Assembly (NCBI RefSeq): GCF_039831995.1
Contig: NZ_JBDOIO010000003.1
Coordinates: forward strand, 1-64,000
Reading direction: 5' to 3'
Source: Paenibacillus pabuli
Lineage (GTDB): Bacteria > Bacillota > Bacilli > Paenibacillales > Paenibacillaceae
Length of the DNA stretch: 64,000 nt
This document shows positions 18,766 through 52,014 of the stretch, piece after piece. Made by a program: the position numbers and the translations under genes. The notes below the pieces were generated by a model, which saw only the letters and a list, made by a program, of their open reading frames with translations, searched no databases and had not been told where the DNA came from. How positions within the stretch are numbered: the stretch's first letter is position 1; the number at the start of each line of letters is the position of its first letter.

Positions 18766-18794
18766 GGCTTGTTACCGGTAATGCGGGCAAAACC
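18766..18794 (+). promoter_or_regulatory. RAT site in leader of first antiterminator gene
   Basis: A 29-nt stretch starting GGCTTGTTACCGG and ending GGGCAAAACC fits the LicT/SacY RAT consensus. Its last ten bases are also the left arm of the terminator at 18785-18840, so binding of the antiterminator would prevent terminator formation. This predicts positive autoregulation. Confidence 0.85.
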
Positions 18795-19712: not shown

Positions 19713-19734
19713 GTGTTAATTAAATATTCCCATG

Positions 19735-19763
19735 GGCTTGTTACTGTTCAATCAGGCAATACC
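19735..19763 (+). promoter_or_regulatory. RAT site before first PTS gene
   Basis: 29 nt beginning GGCTTGTTACTGTTCA and ending CAGGCAATACC. It fits the RAT consensus and overlaps the left arm of the following terminator. It differs at only three positions from the RAT at 32163-32191 of the second cassette. Confidence 0.85.
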
Positions 19764-19840: not shown

Positions 19841-23255
<3,415 letters not shown>

Positions 23256-30845: not shown

Positions 30846-31228
30846 GGTAATAAGTCGGTTTCGTACTGCAATTTAATGCAAAAGAAGAGATGGACCACCT
30901 TGGGCGGGCAATTTATATGAAGATCCCTCCTTAACCATGAATGGTATGCGAGATTGGCTATAGAACTCGGACACTTAGGTGAGTGGTGATCTTCATTTTT
31001 GGAAGTGTTTTTTCAATTCAAGAGGAAATAATGCAAATGCTTTAAGAACATATGAGACAGGCTGAATAAAATATAACAGAACAAACCAAATTAAATTTAT
31101 TGTTGCACATTGTAGAAAATTGTAATACCATGAACGCACATATCGTTGATATTGAAGTTGAAAAGGGCAGGACCTATTACCTTCTTGAAGGTGTGGCTTG
31201 TCTTTTTCTGTATATTGGGGTGGATAAA
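30846..31228 (+). promoter_or_regulatory. Leader of second antiterminator gene with terminator-like hairpin
   Basis: No gene is visible in these 383 bp. GAAGATC/GATCTTC at 30919-30996 may terminate the preceding operon. At 31161-31207 an imperfect stem (AAAAGGGCAGGACC with GGCTTGTCTTTTT, inner ACCTTC/GAAGGT) ends in a T run 22 bp before the start codon, the same place as the conditional terminator of the first cassette. The first half of a RAT is not recognisable, so this attenuator is degenerate or different. Confidence 0.45.
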
Positions 31229-32068
31229 GTGAAAATCGAGAAGGTGCTGAACAATAACGCTGTGGTTGCCATTCAGGATGAGCGCGAAGTCATCGTCATT
31301 GGCCGAGGAATTGCTTTTCAGAAGCGGGCAGGTGATAGAGTCTCCGAGGAGCATATTGACAAGATCTTTACTTTACAAAATGAAGATATTCAGGAAAACT
31401 TCAAAACATTAATCTCCAGCATACCGCTGGAATACATGAAAGTTTCCGAAGAGATCATCGCTTATGCCAAACTGAAATTGGGCAAAAAATTGAATGACAG
31501 CATCTATCTCCATCTTACAGACCACATTCATTTCGCTATTGAGCGTTATCGCAAAAATCTGCCTATCCGTAATGGATTACTGTGGGAAACGAAGCAGTTG
31601 TACAAGGATGAGTACGAAGTGGGACTAGAGGGCCTTAACATGATCTGTGAACAGTTTGGTATCCTATTACCGGAAGATGAAGCCGGATTTATGGCATTGC
31701 ATTTCGTAAATGCAGCGCTTAACGAAGAAATGCCGAATATTCGAAGCATGACGCAGGTGATGCAAGAGGTGCTGACCATCATCAAGTACCATTTCAAAAT
31801 GGATTTTGACGAGAACTCGCTGAACTATTACCGATTTGTGACGCATCTGAAATTTTTCGCCCAGCGTCTGGTCAAAGGGAAGCACTATAAAAATAACAAT
31901 GATGATGAATTGTTTGAACTGATTCAGAAAAAATATCCCGAAGCACACAAGTGCTCAGAGAAAATCAAAAAATTCATCGAAAATAACTACACATATCAAC
32001 TCACTAACGAGGAAATGATGTATCTATCGATTCATATTGAACGTGTGGTGCACGCCACTTCAGAGTAG
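31229..32068 (+). CDS. licT: BglG/LicT family transcription antiterminator (second copy)
   Basis: 279 residues from GTG 31229 (GGGGTGG 5 bp upstream; N-terminus KIEKVLNNNAVVA matches the family; an earlier frame from 31100 crosses the leader hairpin). CAT domain residues 1-55, then PRD1 and PRD2 with the four histidines in DHIHF, ALHFVNAA, FVTHLKFF and LSIHIERV. Paralogous to the protein at 18870-19712. It probably controls the PTS gene downstream through the RAT at 32163. Confidence 0.94.
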   Translation: MKIEKVLNNNAVVAIQDEREVIVIGRGIAFQKRAGDRVSEEHIDKIFTLQNEDIQENFKTLISSIPLEYMKVSEEIIAYAKLKLGKKLNDSIYLHLTDHIHFAIERYRKNLPIRNGLLWETKQLYKDEYEVGLEGLNMICEQFGILLPEDEAGFMALHFVNAALNEEMPNIRSMTQVMQEVLTIIKYHFKMDFDENSLNYYRFVTHLKFFAQRLVKGKHYKNNNDDELFELIQKKYPEAHKCSEKIKKFIENNYTYQLTNEEMMYLSIHIERVVHATSE

Positions 32069-32103: not shown

Positions 32104-32132
32104 TTGCAAAAGATCAGAAGTTATACTATTAT
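32104..32132 (+). promoter_or_regulatory. Candidate promoter of second PTS-glucosidase operon
   Basis: TTGCAA (32104-32109), 17-bp spacer, TATTAT (32127-32132). The sequence AACGCTTGCA over the -35 retains part of a cre site but has about three mismatches to the consensus. Confidence 0.55.
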
Positions 32133-32162
32133 TTATCCATAAAGTAAGCGCATACAAAAATC

Positions 32163-32191
32163 GGATTGTAACTGTTCAATCAGGCAATGCC
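32163..32191 (+). promoter_or_regulatory. RAT site of second cassette
   Basis: 29 nt beginning GGATTGTAACTGTTCA and ending CAGGCAATGCC, differing at three positions from the RAT at 19735-19763. The adjoining hairpin (CCGGTC with GACTGG, 32190-32217) has no T run, so it cannot by itself be a normal terminator. Confidence 0.8.
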
Positions 32192-32215
32192 GGTCACTCC
32201 AGGTCAGTAAAGACT

Positions 32216-32379
32216 GGTTGCAACTTACTTTAAGATGAAGTTGTTGAACGAACAACCGAATATCGCTGTGTACAGCCTTACAGGGTTGCAACCATTAAGG
32301 GCAAAACCTGAATTGCTGAATAACACGACTTGTTTCCGGATCATCCGGCACGTTGTGTATGTTCAGTAGTTCAGGTTTT
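32216..32379 (+). promoter_or_regulatory. Branched leader with second RAT-like segment and terminator
   Basis: GGTTGCAAC (32216-32224) can pair with GTTGCAACC (32285-32293), enclosing a GTTGTT/AACAAC hairpin (32240-32256). GGGTTGCAACC to GGGCAAAACC (32283-32308) resembles a shortened RAT and runs into a long terminator: AACCTGAA/TTCAGGTT (32305-32312 with 32370-32377), an apex CCGGA/TCCGG, and a TTTTCTTT tail. The outer stem and the RAT-like fold are mutually exclusive, suggesting a switch. Confidence 0.55.
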
Positions 32380-32426
32380 CTTTGTTTCACAAGCATGGGG
32401 AGTCTACTTAGAGAGGGAGAATTACT

Positions 32427-34349
32427 ATGAATTATGATCAACTGGCCAAAGACATCCTATCCCGTGTAGGTGGCACTGGAAACGTGAACAGCGTCTTCCA
32501 CTGTGTAACCAGATTACGTTTTAAACTGAAAAATGAAAGCGTTGCTAAAACAGAAGAGATTAAAAATCTGCCTGGCGTCATTACGGTTATGCAGAGTGGT
32601 GGACAGTATCAGGTCGTCATCGGCAATGAAGTACCGGATGTATATAAAGCGATTGTGAAGGTAGGCAACTTGCCGACAGAGGGTCAGGTTGAAGAGACGA
32701 AGGAAGAATCGGGGAAAAAAGTAGGCCTGTTCAGCCGATTTATCGACATGATTTCGGGAGTCTTCACTCCGCTGCTCGGTTTGCTTGCTGCAACAGGGAT
32801 GATCAAAGGTTTTACAGCCATGTTTTTATCCTTCGGGTGGTTGACGAATACGTCAGGAACCTACCATCTGTTGAATGCAACGGGTGACTGTCTGTTCTAC
32901 TTCTTCCCGGTATTCCTTGGTTATACGGCAATCAAGAAGTTTGGCGGCTCACCATTCCTGGGTATGGCCATCGGTGCGACGCTCGTATATCCGACGCTAT
33001 CCGGTTTGACTGCAGGAGATCCATTATACACGTTGTTCGCAGGTACATTGTTTGAGTCACCGATTCATATAACATTCCTGGGTATTCCTGTTATCTTGAT
33101 GAACTATTCATCGTCGGTTATTCCAATTATTATCGCTACATTCTTTGCCGTGAAGATCGAAAGATTCTTCAAAAATGTCATCCCTAAAGTGGTTAGTACA
33201 TTCCTTGTTCCATTCTTTACCCTGCTTGTTATCGTTCCGGCAACGTTCCTTGTTATTGGTCCAGTATCCACTTGGGCAGGACAGTTGATCGGTGCAGGAG
33301 CAACAGGTATCTATGAACTGAGCCCACTTCTTACAGGACTCGTGATTGGCGGTTTGTGGCAAGTGTTCGTCCTGTTCGGTCTCCACTGGGGCCTGGTTCC
33401 AGTCATGCTGCTGAACCTCAGTACGTCCGGAGCTGATCCGGTGGTTGCCATGTCGTTCGCTGCTTCCTTTGCTCAAATTGGTGCGGTACTTGCAGTCATG
33501 TTGAAAACTAAAAATGCCAAACTGAAATCATTGAGTATTCCGGCCTTCATTTCAGGCATCTTCGGTGTAACCGAGCCGGCGATCTATGGTGTGACGCTTC
33601 CACTCAAAAAACCGTTTATCATGAGCTGTGTTGCAGGTGGTATTGGCGGCGCCATTCTGGGATTCTTCGGTTCGAAAATGTACATGTTCGGCGGACTCGG
33701 CGTATTCGGTTATCCGACGTTCATTAACCCGGCCACAGGTGTTGATTCGGCATTCTATATGGCACTTGTAGCAACAGCCGTTGCGTTCGTACTTGGTTTC
33801 GTTCTTACGTATGTCGTTGGTTTCAAGGAAGCTGCAGCACCAGCATCTGCTCCGGCAGCTGCGCCAGCACCTGCACTGGATCCGAATCCGAACAGCAAAT
33901 ACGAAATTTTCAGCCCAATGGCAGGCGAAGTCGTTCCATTGAAGGAAATTAACGACATTACGTTTGCTGGTGAGCACATGGGTAAAGGGATTGCGATTCG
34001 ACCAACAAGTGGCCGAGTGGTATCGCCAATCACTGGTGTCGTACAAACGGTGTACCGCACGAAGCATGCCATTGGACTGGTGACAGATGACGGTGTAGAA
34101 ATGCTGATCCATATTGGACAAGATACGGTACAACTGAAAGGTCAACATTTCAATGCTCATGTGAAAGATGGAGACCGCGTTAACGCAGGTGATCTGATTA
34201 TGGAATTTGATCTGCAGGCCATCAAGGATGCCGGTTATGAGACGGTTACCCCGATTATTATTACGAATACTTCAAATTACCTGGATGTTGTGGGCACCGA
34301 AAATGCATCGGTGAACGAAAAAGACAAATTGCTGACCGTGCTTGGTTAA
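32427..34349 (+). CDS. bglP: Beta-glucoside PTS permease, EIIBCA (second copy)
   Basis: 640 residues, the same EIIB-EIIC-EIIA order as the permease at 19841. Cys26 is in FHCVTRLRF; the EIIC has GVTEPAIYG and LFGLHWGLVP; a poly-Ala/Pro linker (about 470-485) precedes EIIA with the active His in LIHIGQDTV. RBS GAGAGGGAG. Substitutions in EIIC (for example HWGLVP versus HYALVP) suggest a somewhat different glycoside range. The GH1 gene follows after 33 bp. Confidence 0.95.
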   Translation: MNYDQLAKDILSRVGGTGNVNSVFHCVTRLRFKLKNESVAKTEEIKNLPGVITVMQSGGQYQVVIGNEVPDVYKAIVKVGNLPTEGQVEETKEESGKKVGLFSRFIDMISGVFTPLLGLLAATGMIKGFTAMFLSFGWLTNTSGTYHLLNATGDCLFYFFPVFLGYTAIKKFGGSPFLGMAIGATLVYPTLSGLTAGDPLYTLFAGTLFESPIHITFLGIPVILMNYSSSVIPIIIATFFAVKIERFFKNVIPKVVSTFLVPFFTLLVIVPATFLVIGPVSTWAGQLIGAGATGIYELSPLLTGLVIGGLWQVFVLFGLHWGLVPVMLLNLSTSGADPVVAMSFAASFAQIGAVLAVMLKTKNAKLKSLSIPAFISGIFGVTEPAIYGVTLPLKKPFIMSCVAGGIGGAILGFFGSKMYMFGGLGVFGYPTFINPATGVDSAFYMALVATAVAFVLGFVLTYVVGFKEAAAPASAPAAAPAPALDPNPNSKYEIFSPMAGEVVPLKEINDITFAGEHMGKGIAIRPTSGRVVSPITGVVQTVYRTKHAIGLVTDDGVEMLIHIGQDTVQLKGQHFNAHVKDGDRVNAGDLIMEFDLQAIKDAGYETVTPIIITNTSNYLDVVGTENASVNEKDKLLTVLG

Positions 34350-35825
<1,476 letters not shown>

Positions 35826-51758: not shown

Positions 51759-52014
51759 ACATGAATTACGTTGATGGAGCGCAGTAGCGGCTTTGTCCCT
51801 GTTACAGAAAGTCAGGGGTTGATGGAACCTGATACATACAAGGGCTGCGAATTACACTCTGGAGTACTTGGGTAATGCCAAGCGGAACAGGCAAACGATA
51901 TATTGCCAAAAGCGGTATGGACAATGCGTAAGCATCTGTTCATGCAAGTTGGGTGGTACCACGGTTATGATAATCGTCCCTATGTCTAATGAAGACAAGG
52001 AGGCGATTTTTTTG
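51759..52014 (+). promoter_or_regulatory. T-box leader (tyrosine)
   Basis: The T-box core GGGTGGTACCACGG (51951-51964) is clear. Stem I has an AGTA motif near 51782 on the 5' side and GAATTACAC on the 3' side, giving a UAC tyrosine specifier at 51853-51855 followed by A. The terminator pairs AATCGTCC-type bases at 51972 with GGAGGCGATT before a run of seven T (to 52014). Uncharged tRNA-Tyr should favour the antiterminator and tyrS expression. Confidence 0.93.

Follow-up and report, generated by a model that had tools for sequence, protein, structure and literature searches.

A conserved tandem-RAT leader before a PTS gene of Paenibacillus

A leader on the forward strand of a 64,000-nt stretch of Paenibacillus pabuli DNA (the window) carries two RATs in series in front of a PTS gene. 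Its anatomy is plain: both RATs are conserved, the first module has no U tract, and the two RATs resemble those of a sister operon in related genomes. The tandem-RAT leader is a conserved element, real, selected and recurrent. We assign a probability of roughly 0.62 to the reading that it is a LicT-family antitermination leader in which the second RAT (RAT2) and its terminator (T2) form the switch, the first RAT (RAT1) provides an extra site, and the arrangement originated through gene loss.

Locus and anatomy of the leader

The leader lies between a licT/bglG-type antiterminator gene (31229..32068, + strand; Pfam CAT_RBD 79.8 bits and PRD 145 bits, that is, a CAT RNA-binding domain with two PRDs) and a beta-glucoside-type PTS EIIBCA gene (32427..34349, +; Pfam EIIA, EIIC and EIIB), which is followed by a glycosyl hydrolase family 1 gene (34362..35825, +; Pfam) whose product would be of the 6-phospho-beta-glucosidase type. 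A CAT-PRD gene nearby and a PTS gene 3' of the leader, both identified by Pfam, are the neighbors that a RAT leader calls for. The adjacent CAT-PRD protein is the likely cognate antiterminator, beta-glucoside is the putative substrate of the PTS gene judging from gene context, and the leader presumably controls this gene. From 5' to 3' the elements are a promoter-like sequence, a cre-like site, RAT1, a hairpin without a T run, a closing arm, a spacer, RAT2 and a terminator. The promoter-like sequence, TTGCAA-17-TATTAT (32104..32132, +; 9/12 in a consensus scan), is a candidate only, because promoter-like sites in the leader region do not exceed the number found in shuffles in the same scan. 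The cre-like palindrome GTAAGCGCATAC (32144..32155, +), which we take to be a CcpA site, is exact in 43 of 48 leaders and has at most one mismatch in all 48. An earlier sequence-only reading had described a good RAT, a hairpin without a T run, two closing arms and a shortened RAT over a long terminator, and all of these were found where it had placed them. Elsewhere in the window, the other PTS gene (19841-21760) has the ordinary layout by sequence reading, with a RAT at 19734-19735 over one terminator, and another RAT-terminator at 18766 precedes the antiterminator gene belonging to that PTS gene. The whole genome G000 contains nine CAT-domain antiterminator matches and seven matches to the RAT pattern (control: one).

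A DNA search of 75 genomes of the genus with the RAT2-terminator part detected the leader in 48, and every one of these 48 leaders keeps both RATs together with a cre-like site, a spacer and a terminator. A two-stem RAT hairpin with the conserved internal loops of the RAT consensus (GGNUUGNNA...GGCAANNCC) can be formed by RAT1 and by RAT2 in all 48 leaders. RAT1 (GGATTGTAACTGTTCAATCAGGCAATGCC; 32163..32191, +) is a canonical 29-nt RAT that is present throughout the 48 leaders in 14 versions, which differ only at positions 3, 8, 15, 26 and 27. All five variable positions are unpaired in the RAT fold, the paired positions are identical in every leader, and the mean probability of RAT1 formation in full-length folds is 0.86. 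The spacer between the RATs is the least conserved part of the leader (21 aligned leaders). RAT2 is, if anything, better conserved than RAT1 in the aligned sequences, and both RATs look to be under selection because they are nearly invariant while the spacer between them diverges. Conservation of the first RAT only was the outcome named beforehand as adverse to the sequence-only reading, and the retention of RAT2 in all 48 leaders favors it on this point.

RAT1 is not accompanied by a convincing terminator. Folding gives a hairpin (T1; 32184..32221, +, a span that assumes participation of the RAT1 3' strand) that would compete with RAT1 and is followed by AACUUACUUU, with no U tract. In the window genome T1 pairing does not exceed 0.27 at the sampled prefixes, so the hairpin noticed earlier does exist but as a minor conformer; across the genus, one of the 46 distinct leaders shows T1 pairing above 0.5 when folded at full length, compared with 2/46 and 4/46 at two earlier prefixes. 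In none of the 48 leaders does the module-1 spacer have a T run longer than four, whereas in tandem leaders outside the genus a T run of at least five follows the first module in 14 of 15. Hairpins over the RAT1 3' strand are near chance, only slightly stronger than with shuffled spacers: z averages −1.05 and falls below −1 for 18 of the 42 distinct spacers. With T runs this short in 48/48 and T1 minor in 45/46, the RAT1 3' strand was not found to be part of an intrinsic terminator, and module 1 resembles a terminator-less RAT.

RAT2 (GGGTTGCAACCATTAAGGGCAAAACC; 32283..32308, +) is a shortened RAT of 26 nt, with an upper stem of 2 bp and with variation confined to the loop in the 48 leaders. 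Its 3' part overlaps T2, a long intrinsic terminator with a T-rich tail (32303..32387, +; stem 32303-32379); AAAACC is common to both, which places the RAT 3' strand within the terminator. The folding energy of T2 lies between −37.8 and −46.0 kcal/mol in the 46 distinct leaders; of its 29 consensus pairs, 2 show changes on both sides when the 30 distinct T2 sequences are compared. The whole leader folds at −85.2 kcal/mol against a shuffle mean of −57.0 (z −6.8; none of 200 shuffles as good), and T2 alone, at −43.1 kcal/mol, accounts for much of this excess. The completed terminator beats RAT2 in the window genome (−85.8 kcal/mol, vs −74.6 with RAT2 forced). A short RAT of the same form (GGGTTGCAACC, ACTA or ACAA, GGGCAAAACC) is found in twelve relatives, those that keep the sister operon and whose licT ends were read, where it stands alone between licT and another PTS gene, over a terminator. 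In a further relative, G017, the upper stem of the short RAT is CU/AG instead of CC/GG, both sides having changed with the pair kept. We regard RAT2, as judged from these sequences, as a short but genuine RAT, because a short RAT of the same form stands alone over a terminator in sister operons and because the G017 pair is preserved. Its overlap with T2 suggests from anatomy that RAT2 would control the terminator.

Sister operon and probable origin of the leader

The sister operon has the layout long RAT-T1-licT-short RAT-T2-bglP1. The 30 licT regions examined fall into 14 of class I, in which the sister operon has a canonical RAT before licT (including G088 and G061, whose licT frames look broken), and 14 of class II, in which licT stands directly before the leader with no canonical RAT in front of it (including the window genome), together with G078, which is intermediate, and G017, which has the sister operon only. 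In G088 and G061 (loci L071 and L080) the licT frame is apparently disrupted close to its start and bglP1 matches in two pieces; the leader is intact in both. The class II licT leader (31070-31228 in the window) keeps a promoter and a terminator, with a related GTTNACATTGAAG-type sequence at the place of the canonical RAT of class I, and has no Rfam match up to E 10. This suggests that class II licT has escaped control by a RAT of its own or has switched regulator.

Compared as one representative string each, leader RAT1 scores 23 against the first RAT of the sister operon and 6 against the second, and leader RAT2 scores 19 against the second and 13 against the first. Since each leader RAT best matches one of the two sister RATs, the comparison suggests that the leader represents two licT-flanking modules fused after loss of the antiterminator gene. 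The leader probably arose by the joining of two RAT modules, with the first terminator presumably decaying later. Direct duplication of a module is a possible alternative origin. Against the RATs of G017, leader RAT1 still prefers the first (21, vs 10 with the second), but leader RAT2 scores almost equally with the first (15) and the second (14) and so does not discriminate; moreover, the motifs behind the gene-loss origin are short. Class I forms a nested clade on the licT tree, so either arrangement may have come first. In G078 no bglP1 is present within the 8.5 kb examined and the RATs beside licT are damaged, including the short RAT after licT, indicating that unused RATs do decay; the leader under study is intact in this genome.

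Closing stem, proposed mechanism and rival explanations

The spacer measures 72-100 nt across the 48 leaders. It includes the 5' arm of the closing stem (GGTTGCAAC; 32216..32224, +), which takes the form GGTTGCAACTTACTT in 18 of 48 leaders, and, 3' of this arm, a variable part (32225..32266, +) in which neither length nor sequence is conserved. Just 5' of RAT2 stands TGTGTACAGCCTTACA (32267..32282, +), exact in 46 of 48 leaders and with at most one mismatch in all 48, a near-invariance for which the folds offer no explanation. The spacer is not a conserved domain, since its length and sequence diverge while both RATs hold. The 70-nt domain proposed earlier is indeed closed by two arms (32216-32224 and 32285-32293, the latter lying within RAT2) and measures 78 nt with them, but it does not persist as a domain across the genus. 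Coding capacity of the spacer was ruled out, as its length changes break the frame, and GAATGCAACTT, common to some genomes, is too short to count as a vestige of the licT 3' end.

The closing stem comprises 9-11 bp. Among 300 mononucleotide shuffles of the spacer in the window, no more than one attained its ungapped complement of 11 bp, with G-U pairs counted (fraction 0.00). Across the genus, 18 of the 46 distinct leaders give stem pairing above 0.5. Of 42 distinct spacers, 7 have no complement longer than 6 bp, which is no better than in shuffles. The closing stem and RAT2 occupy common bases, and in an RNA of the window genome ending at 32312 their minimum free energies are nearly equal (−44.9 vs −44.8 kcal/mol), so the two folds are mutually exclusive there, as had been proposed, and a bound protein could shift the balance. 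An alternative anti-RAT2 stem, GCCUUA/UAAGGGC, can be drawn but is unfavorable (−37.9 vs −44.9 kcal/mol). On the licT tree of 28 genomes, which omits two whose licT frames are broken and scores G017, a genome with no leader, as lacking the stem, the closing stem requires at least two changes; 19% of bootstrap trees need one. The deep pair G064/G065 carries it.

These observations can be assembled into the following scheme. Without inducer, RAT2 would lose to T2, and in the window genome also to the closing stem, giving a putative default OFF state in which transcription would stop before the PTS gene. Upon induction, the PTS would leave the LicT-type protein in its active state. The active protein would bind RAT2 and block T2, and would also bind RAT1, which has no working terminator. 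RAT1 would most likely serve as an extra upstream LicT site, through capture or local concentration.

An RNA in which T1, aided by NusA, NusG or Rho, still halts polymerase even though its U tract is poor, so that LicT must act twice, would fit the long T run after the first module of 14 of the 15 other tandem loci; many leaders also allow a hairpin with the RAT1 3' strand, which dominates in some partial transcripts (the 2/46 and 4/46 above). The T runs of at most four in all 48 leaders, the hairpin strength near chance (z −1.05) and the single full-length fold among 46 in which T1 exceeds 0.5 make such a double lock rather unlikely. RAT1 could also be a fossil upstream of an ordinary single RAT2-terminator switch, as its lack of a terminator and the tolerance of the long spacer for indels might suggest; we consider this unlikely in view of paired positions that have stayed constant in 48/48 beside a diverged spacer and of the damage to the RATs beside licT in G078.

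The sequence-only reading had favored a two-step or allosteric switch, in which RAT1, T1, the closing stem, RAT2 and T2 form a chain of exclusive folds. In the window genome the isoenergetic closing stem and RAT2, the complementarity beyond chance, and the bases that the T1 3' arm shares with the closing-stem 5' arm are in keeping with it. However, the closing stem is lacking as a prevalent fold in most distinct leaders (above 0.5 in 18/46), and constrained ensemble energies in the window genome gave couplings of −0.2 kcal/mol between RAT1 and RAT2, +0.1 between RAT1 and the closing stem and −0.6 between T1 and RAT2, so that meaningful allostery between the RATs is not supported by the model. 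The chain also predicts the wrong sign, because LicT bound to RAT1 would free GGTTGC, the arm that blocks RAT2. A branched allosteric domain thus did not hold up as a conserved principle, and we judge the chain to be quite unlikely. That the spacer is a riboswitch or other aptamer is highly improbable: the fold is branched in the window genome, but the spacer varies between 72 and 100 nt with an interior that is not conserved, and a search of the leader region against Rfam up to E 10 returned three matches far below the cut-off (two microRNA families and RydC).

We return to the reading with RAT2 and T2 as the switch and RAT1 as an extra site. A doubtful but more specific version of it holds that a selected, terminator-less RAT acts as a loading site for the antiterminator; that some lineages add a closing stem which catches the 5' half of RAT2 co-transcriptionally and sets how much active LicT is needed; and that the whole grew out of the scar left when an antiterminator gene was lost. 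If true, this would be a thresholded two-site antitermination leader. Natural sequence variants of the tandem leader are at hand across dozens of species, and conserved tandem leaders, some having a first terminator and others not, provide a natural test of whether occupancy of the first site alters the response of the second.

Tandem RATs elsewhere and comparison with known systems

The usual account of RAT control pairs each terminator with a single RAT, and the layout had been taken to lie outside that model; leaders with at least two serial RATs nevertheless occur in other bacteria. A pattern scan of genome contigs, in which exact RAT patterns undercount tandem leaders, found 12 stretches with 41-71 nt between RATs; a distance of 71-101 nt occurred in 20 of 398 genomes of the class, 3 of them outside the genus, and in 25 of 245 genomes of the family, all within the genus. 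At least two complete RATs are present in 14 of 15 loci outside the genus, the second RAT of L106 being off consensus. Brevibacillus (L108), Peribacillus (L111) and Salinicoccus (L115) each have complete double modules, preceded by an antiterminator gene and followed by a PTS gene according to Pfam. The L111 leader has three RATs, and L105 (Neobacillus) has three at 43-bp spacing with one terminator and no T run of at least five after the first. Seven of the 15 loci were searched with Rfam at gathering scores and gave no match.

Five Klebsiella loci (L107, L112, L113, L114 and L116) have the arrangement RAT-terminator-RAT-terminator with no antiterminator gene between and with phoU upstream. 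The downstream gene, where found, encodes a LamB-type porin or is a PTS gene; L116 has no downstream frame above 120 aa. Pfam supports the L112 porin and, in L114, both phoU and the PTS gene; the remaining assignments come from reading the sequence. E. coli K-12 has phoU, a RAT with a CTG/CAG stem, bglG, a RAT with a CCG/CGG stem and bglF, so that the same two RAT types stand in the same order beside phoU in both. A BLAST search of one Klebsiella leader against E. coli gave no match. By analogy, bglG may have been lost from the Klebsiella phoU site. According to PMC2646131, the Klebsiella bglGFB homologs lie at another chromosomal place, with bglH, yieL and yieK at the E. coli place, and hence bglG may never have stood between the two Klebsiella RATs. 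Together, the Paenibacillus and the Klebsiella/E. coli comparisons suggest that tandem leaders may be made when an antiterminator gene vanishes between its RATs.

At gathering scores, Rfam reported one T-box and three tRNAs in the whole window, none of them inside the leader; the T-box leader is at 51762-51984 (107.5 bits). RF03530 (bglG-cis-reg), described in PMC11477304 as a Bacillota leader upstream of bglG/licT, likewise concerns a Bacillota leader, but its covariance model has no match in the leader or in the licT leader. Over the 75 genus genomes none reaches its cut-off; 25 have a weak match elsewhere, and none of the 28 places listed is the leader. We found no description of two RATs per leader without an intervening gene in the literature searched, which largely excludes subscription journals, so that absence is unproven.

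Leaders of the LicT/SacY/BglG kind are known as RAT-terminator switches; S. mutans bglP (PMC1489936) is one example. The leader under study has in common with them a hairpin with conserved internal loops, the 3' strand of which doubles as the 5' strand of a terminator, an adjacent CAT-PRD gene and a downstream beta-glucoside PTS gene, but it differs in having two RATs, a RAT1 without a terminator, for which the classic RAT-terminator overlap fails, and a RAT2 with an upper stem of 2 bp. E. coli bglGFB and C. acetobutylicum bglGTH also have two RATs per operon; in PMC12628678, two RAT-terminators with terminators above 20 bp surround bglG in the latter, a length that T2 resembles. Unlike these operons, the leader has no U tract in module 1 and no antiterminator gene between its RATs: licT lies 5' of both, and an operon of the bgl type stands beside the leader in class I relatives. 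RAT motifs with no terminator link are cited for BglG targets and B. subtilis in PMC12502629; RAT1 is like these, and differs from them as described there in lying 5' of a terminator-linked RAT within one leader. The leader is novel in arrangement, not in kind.
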